Shown: positions 15,364 through 24,739 of the stretch, piece after piece
How the letters are laid out: each line of letters begins with the position of its first letter
Numbering within the stretch: position 1 is the first letter of the stretch
Assembly: GCF_014822185.1 (NCBI RefSeq)
Contig: NZ_QVLR01000028.1
Coordinates: 1 to 64,000 of the forward strand
DNA length: 64,000 nt
Direction: 5' to 3'
From: Azoarcus sp. Aa7
GTDB lineage: Bacteria > Pseudomonadota > Gammaproteobacteria > Burkholderiales > Rhodocyclaceae
Program-made: the position numbers and the translations under genes
The notes under the pieces: generated by a model
Seen by the model: the letters and a program-made list of their open reading frames with translations, nothing else
Database searches by the model: none
Told to the model about the DNA's origin: nothing

Positions 15364-17112
15364 ATGCGTGCCAGCCAGTATTTCATCTCCACCCTCAAGG
15401 AAGCCCCCGCCGATGCCGAGGTCGTCAGCCAGAAGCTGATGCTGCGTGCGGGCTTCATCCGCAAGGTTGCCGCCGGCATCTACAGCTACCTGCCGATCGG
15501 CCTGCGCGTGATCCGCAAGGTCGAGGAGATCGTGCGCGAGGAGATGAACCGCGCCGGCGCCCTCGAACTGATGATGCCGATGGTGCAACCCTCCGAGCTG
15601 TGGGCCGAGACCGGCCGCTGGGAGAAGATGGGCGAGGAGATGCTGCGCTTCAAGGATCGTCACGAGCGCGACTTCGCGCTGCAGCCGACCTCCGAGGAGG
15701 TGGTGACCGACATCGCGCGCCAGGAGCTGAAGAGCTACCGCCAGCTGCCGAAGAATTTCTACCAGATCCAGACCAAGTTCCGCGACGAGCGACGTCCGCG
15801 ATTCGGCGTGATGCGCGGGCGCGAATTCACGATGAAGGACGCCTACTCCTTCGACCGCAACATGGACGCCGCGGGCCGCAGCTACGACGCGATGTTCGCG
15901 GCGTACTGCCGCATCTTCGACCGCCTGGGCCTGACCTACCGTGCCGTAGCGGCCGACACCGGCGCGATCGGCGGCGACCGCTCGCACGAGTTCCAGGTGA
16001 TCGCGGACACCGGCGAGGACGCGATCGTCTATTGCCCGGATTCGGACTACGCCGCGAACATCGAGCTGGCCGAGGCGCTGCCGCTGCTGGCGTCGCGCGC
16101 GGCGCCGACCCACGGACTCGAGAAGACGCCGACCCCGGGCGCGGCGACTTGCGCCGACGTCGCGAAGCTGCTCGGCCTGTCGCTGGCGACGACGGTGAAG
16201 TCGCTGGTGCTTGCGACCGACGACGTCGATGACAAGGGGCAACCTGCAGGTGTGACGGTGTGGCTGCTGCTGGTACGCGGCGACCACGGGCTGAACGAAG
16301 TCAAGGCGAGCAAGGTCGAGGGCCTCAAGGCAGGCTTCCGCTTCGCGACCGAGGCCGAGATCCACGAGCACTTCGGCTGCAAGCCCGGCTACCTCGGGCC
16401 GATCGGCATGAAGAAGGCGGTTAAGGTGATCGCCGACCGCACGGTGGCGAACATGTCGGACTTCATCTGCGGCGCCAACGACGAGGACTACCACTACACG
16501 GGCGCCAACTGGGGCCGCGACCTGCCCGAGCCGGACGTCGTCGCCGACTTGCGCAACGTGGTCGAGGGCGACCCGAGCCCGGACGGCAAGGGGCGCCTCG
16601 CGATCCAGCGCGGCATCGAGGTGGGCCATGTGTTCTACCTCGGCACGAAGTACTCGAAGGCGATGAACGCGACCTTCCTCGACGAGGACGGCAAGCCCAA
16701 GCACTTCGAGATGGGCTGCTACGGCATCGGCGTGACGCGCATCCTGGGCGCGGCGATCGAGCAGAACAACGACGCGCGCGGCATCATCTGGCCGGACGCG
16801 CTCGCGCCCTTCCGCATCGTCGTGTGCCCGGTGGGCTGGGGCAAGTCGGACGCGGTGCGCAGCGAGGCGCTGAAGCTCTATGAAGGACTGCTCGCCGCAG
16901 GCGTGGATGCGATCCTCGACGACCGCGACGAGCGCCCGGGCGTGATGTTCGCCGACTGGGAGCTGATCGGCGTGCCGCATCGCGTGGTGATCGGCGAGCG
17001 CGGGCTGAAGGAAGGCATGGCCGAATACCAGGGCCGGCGCGAGGCGGAGGCGACCAAGGTGGCGATCGGCGATCTTGCCGGTTTCGTTGCCGCGAAGCTG
17101 CGGGGCCAATGA
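15364..17112 (+). CDS. proS: prolyl-tRNA synthetase
   Basis: Charges tRNA-Pro. The 582-residue enzyme is the bacterial form with class II motifs ([13 protein letters not shown], then [18 protein letters not shown]) and an inserted YbaK-like editing domain at about 225-400 that clears alanyl-tRNA-Pro. The C-terminal anticodon-binding domain ([28 protein letters not shown]) is complete. It overlaps the next gene by four bases (ATGA), implying coupled translation. Confidence 0.97.
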
Positions 17113-17777
17113 CTTTCGGCTATAACGGACGCATGACACGCACGCTCCGAACACTGCTGCGCGCCGCGCTGATGGCCGCCCTTGCCGTCAGCGGCGGGGC
17201 ATCGGCCGGCAACCAGATCTACGAGCCGATGGCGGCGAGCGTGCGGGCCGCGCTGCATGCGGCGGTGAGCGATGCCGGGGCGCCGGAGCTGCTGATCGCC
17301 GACGCGGGCGAGCGTGCGCGCTGGCTGGGCGAGATGTCGCGCCGCCTGGAGAAGCGCATCCCGGATCGCGCCTATCGGGAGGATCTGCTGACCTCGGTGC
17401 ATTACGAGGCGACCCGCGCAGGACTCGATCCGCAGCTTGTCCTCGGCCTGATCCAGGTCGAGAGCGGTTTCCGCAAGTACGCGGTATCGAGCGCCGGCGC
17501 GCGCGGCTACATGCAGGTGATGCCGTTCTGGGTCAGGACGATAGGCGGGGCGGACGACAACCTCTTCCATCTGCGCACGAACCTGCGCTACGGCTGCACG
17601 ATCCTGCGCCACTACCTCGACGTCGAGAAGGGCGACCTGTTCCGGGCGCTGGGGCGCTACAACGGGAGCCTCGGCCGCCCCGAATATCCGAACATGGTGC
17701 GCGCGGCGTGGGAGCGTCACTGGAGCTATCAGCCGCTGACGCTCGCCGTGACAGAGGCACGCGGCCAGACGAACTGA
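17109..17777 (+). CDS. lytic transglycosylase (SLT domain)
   Basis: Periplasmic muramidase-like enzyme that cleaves peptidoglycan to 1,6-anhydro products. The protein has about 222 residues with a signal peptide ([14 protein letters not shown]) and an SLT domain: the catalytic glutamate is in IQVESGF, followed by [15 protein letters not shown] and GRYNGSLG. Start at ATG 17109 overlapping the proS stop, or at ATG 17133. The proS-transglycosylase pair is common in betaproteobacteria. Confidence 0.9.
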
Positions 17778-17807
17778 GCCGCCCAATCTTCAGACTCGGG
17801 AATCGAC

Positions 17808-18173
17808 ATGGAACACCGACTGTTTCGCCGCCGATCGATCTCGATTTCGTTTCGCGTGTACGACGCGGAAACGGGCAAATTCATCGGGCGCATCGGCGAC
17901 ATCAGCAAGAGCGGCCTGCTCGTATACGGCCCCGCCAAACTGCTGACGGGCCAACTGTACCGCCTGCGCATCGACCTGCCCGACGATCACGGCAAAGGCC
18001 GCAGCGTCGTATTGCCGGCCAAGGCAATGTGGTCGGGCTATGACACCAACCCGGAGTTCTGCAGCACGGGGTTCCGCCTGTTCGAACTGGACCGCCCGGA
18101 AAACGAGGCGGCATTGAAGTCGATGCTGTCGCGCTTCACGGTCGGCTTCGACGACGAAGACGGCGACAGTTGA
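17808..18173 (+). CDS. PilZ-domain protein
   Basis: Predicted cyclic-di-GMP receptor of 121 residues consisting of one PilZ domain. Both binding motifs are present: the arginine run in HRLFRRRSISISFRV and GDISKSGLLV, corresponding to (D/N)xSxxG. No output domain is fused, so it must act on a partner. It follows the lytic transglycosylase by 30 bases and may belong to the proS transcript. Confidence 0.9.
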   Translation: MEHRLFRRRSISISFRVYDAETGKFIGRIGDISKSGLLVYGPAKLLTGQLYRLRIDLPDDHGKGRSVVLPAKAMWSGYDTNPEFCSTGFRLFELDRPENEAALKSMLSRFTVGFDDEDGDS

Positions 18174-18179
18174 AGAACG

Positions 18180-18215
18180 ACCGGCAACCGGCCTCGTTGG
18201 AGGTCGGCTGCCGGT
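18180..18215. terminator. hairpin between converging pilZ and bactofilin genes
   Basis: Arms ACCGGCA (18180-18186) and TGCCGGT (18209-18215) with further pairing inside. The T-tract is poor, so termination strength is uncertain. Confidence 0.45.
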
Positions 18216-18237
18216 TCACGGACTGCAGAAAAGCCGC

Positions 18238-18882
18238 TCAGGCGCCGACGGCGACCTTCACGTTCGGCTCGTCGCGCCCGACTGCGCGCACGGTTTCGCG
18301 CCCGGTATCCTTGGCGTCCTTGGCATTGGCCAGCGACTGGACGTCGCCGGAAATCTCGCCGCCTTCCTCGATCAGGATCTTGCCGTAGCGGATCTTGCCG
18401 CTGACCCGGCCGGTCGAGTGGATGATCAGCTGGCTGCGGGCGGTCAGCTCGCCTTCGAAACGGCCGCGCACTTCCGCGACGTCGATGCCGACGGTGCCGG
18501 CGAACGAGCCGTTCTCGGCAATGCGGATCACGCGGCTGTCCATCGTCGCCTCGACACGACCTTCGACGACCAGGGTGTCGCAGTCGAGGATCTCGGCGCC
18601 CTTCAGCTTGACGTCCGGCCCGACGATCAGGCTGCTACCGGAGTCCTGGGGGGAGTCGTCGATCGCCGCGGCCGCGAGGCTCGCGGACGCAAGCGCCTTG
18701 TCGTCGGCGGCCGGAGAGGAGTCGCTGGACGATGCGGGCAGTTCGGTCGAGCTGCGCGACAGGCTTGCACCAGAGGACGCCGCCCCCGCGGTCAGACTGC
18801 CCGACGGAGACCGCATTGTGCCGTTGTTGCGCGAAGCCGGGGTATCTGGAACCTTGGGGAACAGGGCGGGTTTGTTGAACAT
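18238..18882 (-). CDS. bactofilin
   Basis: Polymer-forming cytoskeletal protein of 214 residues. A disordered Ser/Ala/Pro-rich N-terminus (about 1-85) precedes the bactofilin beta-helix core (about 86-185: IVGPDVKLKGAEIL, VEGRVEATM, GKIRYGKILIEEGGEISGDV). Bactofilins scaffold cell-wall enzymes, stalks or polar structures. The start at 18882 has AAGGAGAG upstream. A sigma-54-type promoter at 18945-18960 faces it, with two GlrR-type sites further upstream, so it is a probable target of the neighbouring GlrK/GlrR system. Confidence 0.93.
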   Translation of the reverse strand: MFNKPALFPKVPDTPASRNNGTMRSPSGSLTAGAASSGASLSRSSTELPASSSDSSPAADDKALASASLAAAAIDDSPQDSGSSLIVGPDVKLKGAEILDCDTLVVEGRVEATMDSRVIRIAENGSFAGTVGIDVAEVRGRFEGELTARSQLIIHSTGRVSGKIRYGKILIEEGGEISGDVQSLANAKDAKDTGRETVRAVGRDEPNVKVAVGA

Positions 18883-18944
18883 GGTCTCTCCTTGAATCCA
18901 TAAACGTTTCCGGGCCGACGATCATCGCCCCCGTGGCCCGCCAA

Positions 18945-18960
18945 AGCACGTGCCATGCCA
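18945..18960 (-). promoter_or_regulatory. sigma-54 promoter candidate for bactofilin
   Basis: On the minus strand TGGCATGGCACGTGCT has the GG-N10-GC spacing and fits TGGCAC-N5-TTGCT with small changes. It lies about 63 bases before the bactofilin start. The two GlrR-type sites are centred about 108 and 175 bases upstream of the predicted transcription start. Confidence 0.65.
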
Positions 18961-19032
18961 TGAATCTAAGACCATGAATTTTAGGAATTTATTTTCTGGA
19001 AAAGGGAAACCCGGGGAAACAGGGGCAAATTC

Positions 19033-19050
19033 TGTCGCCTGATGGCGACA
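19033..19050. promoter_or_regulatory. GlrR-type binding site 1
   Basis: TGTCGCCTGATGGCGACA matches the E. coli GlrR consensus TGTC-N10-GACA exactly and is a 7-bp dyad around a 4-base centre. It is in the glrK/bactofilin intergenic region. Confidence 0.72.
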
Positions 19051-19099
19051 GCCGAGACACGCAAAAAGCTCATCTTGCTGTTTTGATTGATGTTTGATG

Positions 19100-19117
19100 T
19101 GTCGCCCGGAGGCGACA
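19100..19117. promoter_or_regulatory. GlrR-type binding site 2
   Basis: TGTCGCCCGGAGGCGACA, again TGTC-N10-GACA, centred 67 bases from site 1 and ending 97 bases before glrK. Confidence 0.72.
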
Positions 19118-19214
19118 CGGAAAACGTTCAGAAACACCGCCTTGCACTTGCTTACGACGCTGGCGTCCGCTCGCCACCTACACTCTCGCGCTGGTTTACG
19201 AAGATCCTCCAGCC

Positions 19215-20618
19215 ATGTCGCGCCTTTCCTTCAGTCATTCGCTGCTTGCCAGCTTCCTGCTCGTTGCGGCGATCCTGGGCGCCACCGCGCTGGGAGGACT
19301 GATCACGCTGGAGGAATTCGCGACGCGACACCGCGAGAGTGTCGGCGACGCGCTGAAGTATTCCAGCGCAGTGCAGCAGCTGGGCGAGCGCAGCGTCGAC
19401 ATGGAGCGCAGCGCGCGCCAGTTCCTCGTGCTGAAGGATCCGCTGCTGCGCGAGCGCTTCGAGCAGGCGCGGGACGAGTCGCTGGTGGCGCTGCAGACAA
19501 TCGCCGCGCTGCGCGCGCCGAGCGTGAGTGCGCTGGTCGAAGAATGGCGCGCCGCAGCCGACGCGGCCGGAACCACCCTTGCGGAGGGAGGTCCGGCGGA
19601 ATCGGCCACCGTCGCGCTGAGCCGGATGCCGCCGCTGAACGAACAGCTCGCCGGCGAGGTGCAGGCGCAACTCGGCCAGCAGAGCCAGGCCTTGCTCGAA
19701 CAGCTCGACGCGAACCGCGGGCGGCTGGCCTGGCATGTGCTCGCGGCGATCATCGCCGCCTGCACCTTCGCGGCGCTCACGGGCTGGTGGCTGCTGCGCC
19801 CGATCAACCGCCTCGAGGCCGCGATCGAGGCGCTGGGCGAGAGCCGCTTCGACGAGCAGGTGGCGATTCCCGGCCCCGCCGACCTGCGCCGCGTGGGCCG
19901 CCGTCTGGACTGGTTGCGCCTGCGGCTGGCGGATTTCGAGGCGAACCGCAGCCGCGTGCTGCGTCATGTATCGCATGAACTGAAGACGCCGCTCGCGTCG
20001 GTGCGCGAAGGGATTGCGCTGCTGGAAGACGGCGTGGTCGGAGAGTTGAGCAGCGAACAGCGCGAGGTGGTTGCGATCCTGCAACACAACACGCATGCGC
20101 TGCAGGAGCGCATCGAGGATCTGCTGGGTTATAACGCCGCGGTGTTCTACGCGCGCAATCTGCGCCGGCGCCCGGTGCTGCTGCGCGCGCTGGCCGAATC
20201 GGTGATCGCCGAGCAGCAGCTGCCGATCCAGACCCGCAACCTGAAGGTCGTGCTGCACGGCGATCCGCCACCGTTCAGTGCGGACCCCGACAAACTGCGC
20301 ATCGTGCTGGCGAACCTGCTCGCGAACGCGGTGTCCTTCAGCCCGCGCGACGGCGAGATCCGCGTGACGCTGAGCACGCACCCGGGCTGGGTGCGCATCG
20401 ACTGCCTCGACCAGGGGCCGGGCGCCGCAGCGGAGGAGGCCGAACGCATCTTCGACCCCTTCTTCCAGGGCTCCCGGCAACCGGAGGAGCCACGCCACGG
20501 CAGCGGACTCGGCCTGTCGATCGTGCGCGAGTTCGTCGTCGCCCACGGCGGACGCGTCGGGCTGCAGCCGTCGGCAAGAGGTGCCTATTTCAGGATCGAA
20601 CTTCCGAATGAGAGCTGA
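19215..20618 (+). CDS. glrK: sensor histidine kinase GlrK/QseE
   Basis: Membrane kinase of 467 residues. It has two membrane segments (about 11-35 and 173-195) flanking a periplasmic sensor region, a HAMP region, the phosphoacceptor box HVSHELKTPLA with its histidine near residue 254, and an ATPase domain with NLLANAVSFSPRDG, DQGPG and GSGLGLSIV. In E. coli GlrK phosphorylates GlrR, with the lipoprotein QseG acting on the sensor. Here the kinase, lipoprotein and regulator genes overlap by a few bases in that order. The upstream region contains two GlrR-type sites. Confidence 0.92.
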   Translation: MSRLSFSHSLLASFLLVAAILGATALGGLITLEEFATRHRESVGDALKYSSAVQQLGERSVDMERSARQFLVLKDPLLRERFEQARDESLVALQTIAALRAPSVSALVEEWRAAADAAGTTLAEGGPAESATVALSRMPPLNEQLAGEVQAQLGQQSQALLEQLDANRGRLAWHVLAAIIAACTFAALTGWWLLRPINRLEAAIEALGESRFDEQVAIPGPADLRRVGRRLDWLRLRLADFEANRSRVLRHVSHELKTPLASVREGIALLEDGVVGELSSEQREVVAILQHNTHALQERIEDLLGYNAAVFYARNLRRRPVLLRALAESVIAEQQLPIQTRNLKVVLHGDPPPFSADPDKLRIVLANLLANAVSFSPRDGEIRVTLSTHPGWVRIDCLDQGPGAAAEEAERIFDPFFQGSRQPEEPRHGSGLGLSIVREFVVAHGGRVGLQPSARGAYFRIELPNES

Positions 20619-21252
20619 CTTCACCCACGACCGGCCGCCCGTCTGCATCGCCGCGTCGCGCTGCGAACGCTGGGCCGTCGCAGGCATTGCGCTGGCGCTT
20701 GCAGCGGCCCTGGCCGGCTGCGCGACCGTGCGCAGCGCAACGGCGGAGCTGCCGCAGATGCCGCCCCTGCTCGGCAACGGCAATGCGCCGGTGCGCAACG
20801 CCCTCGCCTACCACGAAACGATTCGCGGCATGAACGCTGCCGAACTCGCGCGCGAACGCTCGGCGCTGTCCGGCGCCGGCAATGTCCCGCTGGCGCAGAT
20901 GAAGCAGGCCATGCTGCTGAGTCATCCGCAGGGGAACAACAACCTGCAGCGCGCGCAGTCCTTGCTGGAGGCGATCAACGCTTCCGAAAAACCGGACGCC
21001 GTGGCGCTGCAAGCGCTCGCCCGCCTGCTGGCCGAGCAGTTGCAGGAACGCGTGCGACTGGAAAACACCGCGGAACGCCTTACGCAGCAGCTCGAACGAA
21101 CGGGACAGCAGCTCAAGGATGCCCAGAAACAGAGCGACCAGCTTCAGGAGAAGCTCGACGCATTGACCGAAATCGAACGCACGCTGCCGGCGCGCCCGTC
21201 CACGCCGACGCCGCCGCTGCCGTCATCGCGGGAAAGGAGAAGCGAAAAATGA
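20608..21252 (+). CDS. qseG: QseG-like lipoprotein of the GlrK/GlrR system
   Basis: 214-residue predicted lipoprotein. The signal sequence ends in the lipobox LAGC, with the lipidated cysteine at about residue 38. The C-terminal half (about 130-195) is a coiled coil (LEERV-, TQQLERTGQQLKDAQKQ-type heptads), and the tail is proline-rich. It overlaps glrK by 11 bases and glrR by four (ATGA). In enteric bacteria QseG is an outer-membrane lipoprotein that interacts with GlrK/QseE. The assignment here rests on position and architecture more than on sequence. Confidence 0.78.
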   Translation: MRADFTHDRPPVCIAASRCERWAVAGIALALAAALAGCATVRSATAELPQMPPLLGNGNAPVRNALAYHETIRGMNAAELARERSALSGAGNVPLAQMKQAMLLSHPQGNNNLQRAQSLLEAINASEKPDAVALQALARLLAEQLQERVRLENTAERLTQQLERTGQQLKDAQKQSDQLQEKLDALTEIERTLPARPSTPTPPLPSSRERRSEK

Positions 21253-22682
21253 GGACGAGCCCTTCCACCACAGGCGAGACGAAGACGGCGCAGGACGGCG
21301 CCCACCTGCTGCTCGTCGACGACGATGCCGATCTGTTGCGGCTGCTGTCGATGCGCCTGCGCGCGAGCGGTTATCGCGTCAGTACGGCCGAAAGCGCCGA
21401 GGTCGCGCTGGCCTGCCTGGCCGTCGAACGCTTCGGTCTGGTGTTGAGCGACGTACGCCTGCCCGATCGCGACGGGCTGGTGCTGTTCGAGGAGATCCGC
21501 CAGACCTGGCCGGCGCTGCCGGTGATCCTGTTGACTGCACATGGCACGATCCCGGACGCGGTGGAGGCCACCTCGCGCGGCGTGTTCGGATATCTGACCA
21601 AGCCGTTCGACAGCAAGGCCCTGCTCGGCAAGATCGCGCAGGCGCTGCAGATCGGGGGTACGCCCCACGTCTGCGAGGAGGGCACGGCGGCCACCGGCTG
21701 GCGCGACGCGATCATCAGCCACAGCAGCCGCATGGCGACGGTGCTGGACGAGGCCCAGCTTGTTGCCGCTTCGGATGCGAGCGTGCTGATACGCGGCGAC
21801 AGCGGCACCGGCAAGGAGCTGCTGGCGCGCGCGATCCACGATGCCAGCCCGCGCGCGGCCCGTCCCTTCATCGCGATCAACTGCGGCGCGATTCCCGAAA
21901 CACTGCTCGAATCGGAACTCTTCGGCCATGTGAAGGGGGCCTTCACCGGCGCAGCGAGCTCGCACACGGGCCTGTTCCAGGCCGCGGATGGCGGCACGGT
22001 GTTCCTCGACGAGATCGGCGACATGCCGCTCGCGCTGCAGGTGAAGTTGCTGCGGGTACTGCAGGAGCGCGCAGTGCGTCCGGTCGGCGCGAGCCGCGCG
22101 CAGGAGATCGATGTGCGCATCCTGTCTGCGACCCATCGCGACCTCGAAGCGGCGCTGGTCGCCGGAACCTTCCGCGAGGACCTGTTCTATCGCCTGAACG
22201 TCGTCGGCCTGAACCTGCCGACGCTGGACGAACGGCGCGAGGACATCCCGCTGCTGGCGAACCACTTCCTGCGGGGGCTCGCACGCAAGTACCAGAAGCG
22301 GCTGCGCGGCTTCGCGCCGGAGGCGCTCGAGGCGCTGACCACCGCGGCCTGGCCGGGCAACATCCGCCAGCTGCAGAACGTCGTGGAACAGGCCAGCGCA
22401 CTTGCGACGACGCCGTTGATCCCGCTTGCACTGGTCGAGCGCGCGCTGCGCGGGCCGAGCCTGGAGGCGTTGAGCTACGCCGAGGCGAAAATGCGCTTCG
22501 AGCGCAACTACCTGATCCAGCTGCTGAAGCTCACCGATGGCAACGTGTCCGACGCGGCCCGCCTCGCGGACCGCAACCGCACCGAGTTCTACCGCCTGCT
22601 GCAGCGGCACTCGCTGACACCCAGCCTGTTCCGCGGCGACAGCGCCGATGTCGCCCGCGAGCGACAGCAGGAATTCAACTGA
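21249..22682 (+). CDS. glrR: sigma-54-dependent response regulator GlrR/QseF
   Basis: 477-residue NtrC-type activator. The receiver domain has the acidic pocket VDDDADL and the phosphorylatable aspartate in LSDVRLPD, near residue 68. The AAA+ domain has Walker A GDSGTGKE, the sigma-54 contact loop GAFTGA (near 229) and the arginine-finger region FREDLFYRLNV. A helix-turn-helix (GNVSDAARLADRNRTEFYRLLQRH) is at the C-terminus. It should bind TGTC-N10-GACA sites, and three such sites are found at 19033, 19100 and 22713, flanking its own operon. Confidence 0.93.
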   Translation: MRTSPSTTGETKTAQDGAHLLLVDDDADLLRLLSMRLRASGYRVSTAESAEVALACLAVERFGLVLSDVRLPDRDGLVLFEEIRQTWPALPVILLTAHGTIPDAVEATSRGVFGYLTKPFDSKALLGKIAQALQIGGTPHVCEEGTAATGWRDAIISHSSRMATVLDEAQLVAASDASVLIRGDSGTGKELLARAIHDASPRAARPFIAINCGAIPETLLESELFGHVKGAFTGAASSHTGLFQAADGGTVFLDEIGDMPLALQVKLLRVLQERAVRPVGASRAQEIDVRILSATHRDLEAALVAGTFREDLFYRLNVVGLNLPTLDERREDIPLLANHFLRGLARKYQKRLRGFAPEALEALTTAAWPGNIRQLQNVVEQASALATTPLIPLALVERALRGPSLEALSYAEAKMRFERNYLIQLLKLTDGNVSDAARLADRNRTEFYRLLQRHSLTPSLFRGDSADVARERQQEFN

Positions 22683-22712
22683 ATCAGAGACTTGTGCCAG
22701 ACCGCGGATTAC

Positions 22713-22730
22713 TGTCGGGGAATAACGACA
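22713..22730. promoter_or_regulatory. GlrR-type binding site 3
   Basis: TGTCGGGGAATAACGACA, an exact TGTC-N10-GACA, lies about 130 bases upstream of the predicted start of transcription of the BON-domain gene. That is a normal distance for a sigma-54 enhancer site. Confidence 0.7.
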
Positions 22731-22826
22731 CTTTTCGGCGGCGATCGGCATTCCGGACCCCGCGCGGACGCGGAAATACGCCGGAAACCCCTCCAGCCCC
22801 GCGTCCGCAAAGGCCTTGACGGGAAC

Positions 22827-22842
22827 TGGCACGCCACCTGCT
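22827..22842 (+). promoter_or_regulatory. sigma-54 promoter candidate for the BON-domain gene
   Basis: TGGCACGCCACCTGCT has a perfect -24 element (TGGCAC), GG-N10-GC spacing and CTGCT at -12. It is about 70 bases upstream of the GTG start at 22912. Confidence 0.75.
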
Positions 22843-22911
22843 GTAAGAAGAGCGAAGCGCGTCCCCAACCGCGCATGCAGCTACATGACTCTTCGCAGAA
22901 GGAGCCCCGAC

Positions 22912-23253
22912 GTGATCACCCGCAAGAACATCGTTTCCTTACTCACCACCACCGCAATCGCATTTTGTATCGGCGCGCCGGCACGGGCGGACAGCCTCGT
23001 GGCGGTGGCGCAGGCTACGGCTGCCGTGGCGCGCGACGAACACGATCACAACCTCCAGCGCGAGATCAAGACGGCGATCGGCGCAGACCCCGAGCTGAAC
23101 ACCGCGCACATCGCGGTGTCGGCGCACGCGGGGCGCGTGACGCTGGCCGGCGTCGTGGTCAACGAGGAGCAGCGCACCCGCGCGCAGCGTACCGTGCTGA
23201 ACGTGCGCGGCGTGCGTCTGGTCGAGAACGCGCTGGAACTGACAGAACGCTGA
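22912..23253 (+). CDS. BON-domain periplasmic protein
   Basis: 113-residue secreted protein with a signal peptide (ITRKNIVSLLTTTAIAFCIGAPARA) and one BON domain (about 45-110: LQREIKTAIGADPELNTAHIAVSAHAGRVTLAG). BON domains, as in OsmY, bind phospholipid and help envelope stability under stress. Start GTG 22912 is chosen for AAGGAG seven bases upstream. An ATG at 22885 would place extra basic residues before the signal peptide. The upstream sigma-54 promoter and GlrR-type site make it a likely member of the GlrR regulon. Confidence 0.85.
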   Translation: MITRKNIVSLLTTTAIAFCIGAPARADSLVAVAQATAAVARDEHDHNLQREIKTAIGADPELNTAHIAVSAHAGRVTLAGVVVNEEQRTRAQRTVLNVRGVRLVENALELTER

Positions 23254-23293
23254 ACCGTCGGCGCGCCGCCGGTGCCGGGTTCCCCCCGCCCGG

Positions 23294-24739
23294 TCAGGCG
23301 GTGCCGCCGACGGTCAGCCCGTCGAGGCGCAGCGTGGGTTGGCCGACGCCGACCGGGACGCTCTGGCCGTCCTTGCCGCAGGTGCCGACACCGGGATCGA
23401 GCGCCATGTCGTTGCCGATCATCGACACGCGCGTGAGCGCATCCGGGCCGTTGCCGATCAGCGTCGCACCCTTCACCGGGCGGGTGACCTTGCCGTTCTC
23501 GATCAGGTAGGCCTCGGCGGTCGAGAACACGAACTTGCCGGAGGTGATGTCGACCTGGCCGCCGCCGAAGTTCACCGCGTACAGACCCTTCTTCACCGAC
23601 TTGATGATCTCCTCGGGCGCCTTGTCGCCGTTCAGCATGTAGGTGTTGGTCATGCGCGGCAGCGGCAGGTGGGCGAAGGATTCGCGCCGGCCGTTGCCGG
23701 TGGGCTTCACGCCCATGAGGCGGGCGTTCATCGTGTCCTGCATGTAGCCGGTGAGGATGCCGTCCTCAATGAGCACCGTGCGTTCGGTCGGATTGCCCTC
23801 GTCGTCGATGGTCAGCGACCCGCGACGGTCCGGCAGCGTGCCGTCGTCGACGACCGTGACGCCCTTCGCCGCGACCTGCTGGCCCATGCGTCCGGAGAAG
23901 GCCGAGCTGCCCTTGCGGTTGAAGTCACCCTCGAGGCCGTGGCCGATCGCCTCGTGCAGCAGGATGCCGGGCCAGCCCGGTCCCAGCACGACGCTCATTG
24001 TGCCGGCCGGCGCAGGACCGGCGGCGAGGTTGGTGCGCGCCTGATGCACCGCCGCGCGCGCGTATTCCTGCAGGCGATCGTCGTCGAAGTAGCTGTAGTC
24101 GAAGCGCCCGCCACCGCCGGCGCTGCCCTGCTCGCGGTGGCCCTTGTCTTCCATGATCACGGTGACCGACACGCGCACGAGCGGCCGCACGTCGGCTGCC
24201 ATATGGCCGTCGCTGCGCGCGACGAGCACGACTTCCCACGAGCCGGCGATGTGCGCCATGACCTGCGCGACGCGCGGATCCTCGCCGCGCGCGAAGCCTT
24301 CGAGGCGCTCGAGGAGCTTCACCTTGGCGGTGTCGTCGAGCGAGGCGAGCGGGTCCTCGCCGCGGTACAGGCGCGACTTGCCGGCATGCGGGGCGATCGC
24401 GACGCTGCGCCGGCCGCCGGCCTCGGCGATCGCGCGCGTCGCTTCGGCGGCCGCGGTGAGGGCGGGCAGCGAGATGTCGTCGGAGTAGGCGAAGGCGGTC
24501 TTCTCGCCGCTGATCGCGCGCACGCCGACGCCTTGCTCGATGTTGAAGCTGCCCGACTTGACGATGCCTTCCTCGAGGCTCCAGCCCTCCGAACGGTGGT
24601 ACTGGAAATACAGGTCGGCGTAGTCGAGGCGATGGCGCATCAGCTTGCGGAACACCTTCTCGAGTTCCGCCTCGCCCAGATCGTAGGGGTTGAGGAGGTA
24701 ACGGTCGGCGACCTTGAGGGGGTTCTGTGCTCGGCTCAT
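23294..24739 (-). CDS. tldD: metalloprotease subunit TldD
   Basis: 481-residue TldD, the catalytic half of the TldD/TldE (PmbA) heterodimer that degrades unfolded peptides and matures some ribosomal peptides such as microcin B17 in E. coli. The zinc motif [11 protein letters not shown] (near residue 261) is present. The partner PmbA is encoded in this same window at 52729-54069 but in a separate operon. It is the last gene of the leftward yhdP-nitrilase-tldD operon, with 75 bases after the nitrilase gene. Confidence 0.96.

Follow-up and report, generated by a model that had tools for sequence, protein, structure and literature searches.

The GlrK-GlrR system of Escherichia coli turns on a small RNA. 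A stretch of 64,000 nucleotides from Azoarcus sp. Aa7 (contig NZ_QVLR01000028.1, positions 1 to 64,000; hereafter, the window) carries genes for a GlrK-like kinase, a QseG-like lipoprotein and a GlrR-like activator, in the order glrK-qseG-glrR; the gene divergent upstream of glrK codes for a bactofilin, a polymer-forming scaffold protein of the cell, and a gene for a BON-domain protein follows glrR. What, then, does GlrR control in this organism? An initial annotation had noticed two putative GlrR sites and a sigma-54 promoter directed at the bactofilin gene, and had proposed envelope-stress control of a wall scaffold. Here, we examine this proposal in the source genome and its relatives.

Two predicted modules flank glrK-qseG-glrR

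The regulator encoded in the window looks like an orthologue of GlrR. In a pairwise comparison it shows 58% identity to E. coli GlrR, and its C-terminal helix-turn-helix stretch, GNVSDAARLADRNRTEFYRLLQRH, shares 18 of 24 residues, counted by hand, with that of E. coli, GNVTHAARMAGRNRTEFYKLLSRH. The receiver (PF00072) and sigma-54 AAA+ (PF00158) domains score above their cut-offs, the GAFTGA motif is present in the translation, and the Fis-type helix-turn-helix (PF02954) is matched below cut-off (E 4.9e-4, 20.2 bits against 22). Among 103 NCBIfam hits the GlrR model, PRK15115, is the best, with 616.7 bits under an equivalog cut-off of 763. The product of the gene between glrK and glrR matches QseG weakly, under the cut-offs of both libraries (PF13942, E 1.1e-5; NCBIfam QseG, E 3.8e-4). 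A gene for RpoN is present once in the source genome. The bactofilin, for which the start codon lies at 18882 and is preceded by AAGGAGAG, is well matched by its Pfam profile (PF04519; 64.8 bits, E 9e-18, cut-off 27.9) and weakly by the solved Bactofilin A (2n3d; E 4e-4); the bactofilin domain is common to both, whereas the window type forms a subfamily that 123 of 249 genomes of the family carry in a single copy. The BON-domain protein is probably periplasmic. A PilZ-domain gene (17808-18173) lies between a lytic transglycosylase gene and the bactofilin gene, and has a match in six of 120 relative loci (L157-L160, L174 and L273).

Table 1. Coordinates of genes and predicted regulatory elements around glrK-qseG-glrR in the window
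Feature	Position	Strand	Remarks
Bactofilin gene	18238..18882	-	214 aa; PF04519; predicted module target
Predicted sigma-54 promoter TGGCATGGCACGTGCT, facing bactofilin	18945..18960	-	10/12 consensus matches
Promoter-proximal predicted GlrR site TGTCGCCTGATGGCGACA	19033..19050	.	exact TGTC-N10-GACA; kept in relatives
Weak IHF-like sequence between sites, AATCAAAACAGCA	19076..19088	-	two mismatches to WATCARNNNNTTR, by eye
Promoter-distal predicted GlrR site TGTCGCCCGGAGGCGACA	19100..19117	.	exact; 67 bp from proximal site
Conserved element CTTGCACTTGCTTAC, upstream of glrK	19141..19155	+	15 bases; by-eye alignment
glrK (qseE), sensor kinase	19215..20618	+	HAMP-HisKA-HATPase; 35% identity to E. 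coli GlrK
qseG-like lipoprotein gene	20608..21252	+	weak profile matches; between glrK and glrR
glrR (qseF), sigma-54 activator	21249..22682	+	NCBIfam GlrR PRK15115
Distal predicted GlrR site, within 3' end of glrR reading frame	22649..22666	.	exact
Exact IHF consensus AATCAGAGACTTG between sites	22682..22694	+	read by eye
Proximal predicted GlrR site	22713..22730	.	exact; spacing 64 bp
Predicted sigma-54 promoter TGGCACGCCACCTGCT, facing BON gene	22827..22842	+	11/12 consensus matches, near-consensus
BON-domain (OsmY-like) gene	22912..23253	+	PF04972, E 1.2e-15; NCBIfam OsmY, E 2.2e-7, below cut-off

Both sites ahead of the bactofilin gene, at 19033 and 19100, have the exact form TGTC-N10-GACA, as the initial annotation had it, and the promoter of GG-N10-GC form on the minus strand points to the bactofilin gene, its two deviations from consensus being a T for C after TGGCA and a G at the first T of TTGC. 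With C18946 taken as -12, the predicted start falls near 18934 and the site centres, by arithmetic, at about -108 and -175, the distances given before. Downstream of glrR we found a second, complete module, absent from that annotation, which spans 22649-22842 and faces the BON gene; its AATCAGAGACTTG occupies the same position in the gap between the sites as in most relatives. The IHF-like sequence is exact at the BON module and weak, by eye, at the bactofilin module, within a class of sequences that is enriched over the module set as a whole (see below). The element CTTGCACTTGCTTAC lies between the distal GlrR site and glrK; by eye, it is kept with changes in six of seven aligned sequences of the window's genus, and a similar element stands upstream of the bactofilin gene in L174 and L246, where no glrK was found.

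The sites could in principle be chance palindromes of GC-rich DNA, and the exact 18-mer TGTCG-N8-CGACA does occur at 30 places in the 5,394,175-base genome (nine for the reversed control pattern), including four in the window (19033, 19100, 22649 and 22713); a lone site therefore carries little weight. Pairs of sites, however, argue against chance. TGTC-N10-GACA pairs separated by a gap of 30-60 bp are found at only two places in the genome, the two that flank glrK-qseG-glrR, and the reversed control gave none. Dinucleotide-shuffled upstream regions yielded no pair in 2440 trials, and when seven intergenic regions from the window's genus are aligned (an eighth, L174, was left out), the site cores are conspicuous. 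Given the genome count, the shuffles and the conservation, we reject a chance origin of the pairs, the probability of which we regard as practically nil.

Conservation and anatomy of the module in the family

For the comparison with relatives, we counted as a module any two TGTC-N10-GACA sites that lie 62-71 bp apart and together carry no more than one mismatch, provided that a GG-N10-GC promoter with a score of 9/12 or higher follows 45-110 bp past the sites. The sample comprised 249 genomes of the same family, part of a larger group. From 127 GlrR places listed, 120 loci besides the window were fetched; of the six not taken, one was included later as L303. To these were added 50 loci of the window-like bactofilin (27 from genomes with GlrR, 23 from genomes without a GlrR hit) and, for comparison, ten loci of the other, higher-scoring PF04519 bactofilin.

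The 1,259,433 bases around glrR (121 loci, the window included) contain 100 modules: 47 directed at a divergent bactofilin gene, 47 downstream of glrR and pointing onward, three directed at glrK and three elsewhere. Where the bactofilin gene and glrK are divergent, a pair with at most one mismatch is present in 44 of 56 loci, the other 12 failing the strict test; conservation in relatives with the same gene order, the test put forward in the initial annotation, thus held. Divergent loci with a module include those of Dechloromonas denitrificans (L047), a Propionivibrio MAG (L052) and a MAG named 'Gammaproteobacteria' (L050). As the upstream pair sits between two divergent genes, it might serve autoregulation of glrK, the nearness of the bactofilin gene being incidental, and a sigma-54-like match toward glrK is indeed seen in three of the 44 pair-bearing loci. 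A promoter toward the bactofilin gene, however, is present in all 44 (1.1% in base-shuffled DNA); the module also stands downstream of glrR, pointing away from glrK, in the 47 cases above, and it precedes the bactofilin gene in 13 of 26 loci away from glrR, with no glrK on the fetched stretch. On the direction of the promoter and on these distant bactofilins, we reject glrK autoregulation as the purpose of the upstream pair and consider it very unlikely; control of the bactofilin gene is the reading followed below.

Site spacing is 64-70 bp over 120 modules (102 loci). In 51 of the 120 modules an IHF-like match with at most one mismatch occurs between the sites, against 4.7% in base-shuffled gaps; 72 of the 120 have such a match in the interval from the proximal site to the promoter, against 9.4%. 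Forward-strand matches between the sites number 49, and 46 of them lie at gap positions 15-17. Site-to-promoter distances cluster at 51-52, 62-66, 72-78, 84-87 and 93-97 bp, with one at 123 bp, which is suggestive only of helical phasing, the sequences being related and non-independent and the period poorly fixed.

A bactofilin hit is present in 72 of the glrR loci, the window among them, and 52 of the 72 pass the strict test for the module; in one of the 52, L251, the first gene behind the module codes for a glycine-zipper protein, which leaves 51 clear cases. The 20 failures are of several kinds. By eye, six (L172, L175, L184, L188, L193 and L203) have a degraded second site and TGGCACG-N4-TTGA promoters; five (L231, L252, L253, L260 and L262) lack a module specific to the bactofilin gene, which lies at least 1 kb past the end of glrR; in the remaining nine, one site or both carry additional mismatches. 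The TGGCACG-N4-TTGA sequence, with GA for GC at -12 ahead of the bactofilin gene in those six loci, is possibly an unusual type of sigma-54 promoter.

In L191 the module is kept at its usual place (near -2266 from glrR), and the frame behind it, of only 92 aa, is possibly a decayed bactofilin; the genome (G018) has no PF04519 match. In L039, L041 and L042, site pairs of TGTCCGGA/TGTCTGA type and sigma-54 promoters precede one type of gene, the product of which resembles, by eye, an ABC substrate-binding protein; these pairs are probably the site of another activator.

Association with GlrR and range of the predicted targets

Taking as a GlrR hit a match with E at most 1e-140, and as 'without GlrR' the lack of such a hit, we found GlrR in 120 of the 249 family genomes, site pairs in 73 (reversed control in three), the window-like bactofilin as single copies in the 123 mentioned above, and any PF04519 bactofilin in 204. 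GlrR and the pair occur together in 67 genomes, GlrR only in 53, the pair only in six and neither in 123 (Fisher p 2e-20, uncorrected for relatedness); the corresponding numbers for GlrR and the window-like bactofilin are 100, 20, 23 and 106 (Fisher p 1e-26, likewise uncorrected), this bactofilin being absent from 20 of 120 GlrR genomes and present in 23 of the 129 others. A tree of the bactofilins (121 of 122 loci, one short hit having been dropped) offers two supported independent contrasts of GlrR presence and absence, or six when all branches are counted; with two supported contrasts, the tree does not by itself establish correlated evolution of GlrR and the module.

Other gene orders also occur. 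Immediately past glrR, and behind the module, L230, L245, L257 and L261 have the bactofilin gene itself. Of the 27 loci from GlrR genomes in which it had been taken to be unlinked, 14 had the module; L303, with a GlrR-like gene adjacent, was set aside, which gives the 13 of 26 cited above, the other 13 failing the strict test. One of the 13 with the module, L289, lies on the same contig as glrR, about 10 kb away. Where a GlrR-type gene was seen, 69 of 105 bactofilins have the module; where none was seen, 15 of 16 are without it. Six loci (L304-L307, L314 and L315) have the bactofilin gene adjoining tldD, with no glrK-qseG-glrR between, and the module is absent from all six even under relaxed criteria; L302, from a genome with glrR on another contig, has the same bactofilin-tldD order and no module.

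Within the genomes without a GlrR hit, five of 23 bactofilin loci carry the module. In three of them (L310, L318 and L320) the bactofilin gene adjoins a GlrR-like one; in L321, glrK and qseG lie right where the contig begins; and L313 (genome G090, 86% complete) keeps the module with no GlrR-type gene on its 4.5 kb. Overall, a GlrR-like gene adjoins the bactofilin gene in five of these 23 loci (L310, L318, L320 at 69%, L323 at 57% and L316 at 55%), and glrK is found on the same stretch in two (L321 and L326). None of the ten loci sampled for the second PF04519 bactofilin, the one with the higher score, has a site pair within 4.3 kb.

Could a sigma-54 activator other than GlrR use the sites? 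The genomes carry several such activators, and genera g57 and g67 have a GlrR-like gene without glrK beside the bactofilin gene. The site sequence, however, is the QseF/GlrR consensus published in PMC8745638; the pairs flank glrR, track GlrR across genomes and stand at E. coli glmY; and the g57/g67 gene is itself GlrR-like. Use of the sites by a different activator is therefore highly improbable in our view, and GlrR is retained as the predicted regulator. The GlrR-like activator without glrK was seen beside the bactofilin gene in L246, L249, L273, L303, L310, L316, L318, L320 and L323; four genomes of this g57/g67 type carry glrK-qseG-glrR at a different place (L164-L167), and the stretch read there shows no bactofilin, a pattern that suggests duplication and division of roles.

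The claim that these elements control a bactofilin gene is supported by these comparisons, but its scope was too narrow: the module also precedes BON genes, downstream of glrR in the window and in several relatives, and genes for glycine-zipper proteins. Where GlrR is more distant (57-64% identical), four of the five first genes typed with Pfam code for glycine-zipper proteins (L226, L232, L251 and L237) and the fifth, in L247, has no Pfam family. BON or EF-hand-plus-BON proteins are encoded behind the module in other families, in Duganella (L053), L346 and L352; L025, a locus of a family genome away from glrR, has a first gene without a Pfam family. A stricter pair pattern, applied to an order-wide sample, was found in 25 of 399 genomes; among the 22 newly returned loci (L338-L359), a bactofilin gene behind the pair was seen in L353 alone, which belongs to the same family, and the first gene is unassigned in many of the others. 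The loci read in this search thus hold no bactofilin link beyond the family. Because the order-wide pairs, in the loci read, led a bactofilin only within the same family, the bactofilin link looks family-specific, and small exported proteins seem to be the wider theme.

A known enhancer design with a new predicted target

Scanned with the same motifs, E. coli K-12 has three exact sites ahead of glmY, which lie at -230, -197 and -134 relative to the first base of that gene, and a promoter, TGGCACAGTTACTGCA, at -27, which scores 10/12 and lies 89 bp past the last site; this arrangement fits the module definition, in line with the parallel drawn in the initial annotation. The last two glmY sites are 63 bp apart, against 64 and 67 bp in the two window modules. 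Common to both systems are a regulator of the GlrR family, TGTC-N10-GACA sites, of which two lie about 66 bp apart, a sigma-54 promoter and the position beside glrK. IHF-like sites also belong to the layout, the match between the sites being weak at the bactofilin module of the window; IHF is described as assisting glmY transcription (PMC6075780 and PMC8745638). The targets differ. glmY precedes glrK on the same strand, whereas the window target is protein-coding and divergent from glrK, and past glrR there is a further module, directed at a BON gene; an Rfam search of window positions 17000-24000 at E up to 1 found no GlmY-like RNA or any other match, and to the extent that Rfam can show this, the divergent neighbour is a bactofilin gene and not a small RNA, as first annotated. 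Another parallel is E. coli rpoE, which QseF controls from a sigma-54 promoter (PMC6075780): likewise a GlrR/QseF target of envelope relevance with a sigma-54 promoter, although the target is a different one.

A search of the open-access literature, a scope that excludes most subscription papers and all preprints, found no link between GlrR, or QseF, and a bactofilin. Among papers that mention a bactofilin together with RpoN or sigma-54, PMC9218911 presents it as a VemR-interacting protein and not as a GlrR target; term searches in two sigma-54 surveys (PMC3162934 and PMC12316311) met no named bactofilin or cytoskeletal protein; and the qseEGF paper of 2025 notes the cluster in Betaproteobacteria and names no bactofilin in its section 5 (PMC12691602). 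As far as the open-access literature goes, the proposed mechanism is known already and its predicted target is new.

The sites and promoters, with their specificity and conservation, are seen directly in the sequences; on these comparisons, GlrR and sigma-54 very probably activate transcription of the bactofilin and BON genes directly in this family. GlrK would phosphorylate GlrR under the control of QseG, and GlrR would occupy its pair of enhancer sites ahead of the bactofilin gene and the second pair ahead of the BON gene. IHF would bend the DNA between and after the GlrR sites, and because of this proposed bending the GlrR AAA+ assembly could contact the sigma-54 RNA polymerase and open the promoter. 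The signal would be the state of the envelope, sensed by GlrK and answered with extra bactofilin scaffold and BON protein; the bactofilin would then act as a wall scaffold under envelope-stress control, as had been proposed. Taken as a whole, control of the bactofilin and BON genes by GlrK-QseG-GlrR, IHF and sigma-54 is an explanation in which we have strong confidence.

These results describe a conserved predicted GlrR regulon outside the enterobacteria, for a system whose literature, in the parts available to us, centres on GlmY and rpoE. They provide a direct candidate transcriptional input for a bactofilin, which would be tied to the QseG-GlrK sensor, and they illustrate an enhancer design that is kept while the target differs, a small RNA in one case and a scaffold protein in the other. 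The envelope genes behind the module vary from genus to genus, and for this reason the module may be used to read what GlrK senses. A broader reading, plausible but in our judgement somewhat short of probable, is that GlrK-QseG-GlrR is in this family a structural envelope-maintenance switch with an inducible bactofilin scaffold and small exported proteins (BON, glycine zipper) as its conserved outputs; the enhancer module would then be the older element, acting directly on envelope proteins in other lineages, and the GlmY output of the enterobacteria would have come from its re-wiring in a single lineage.
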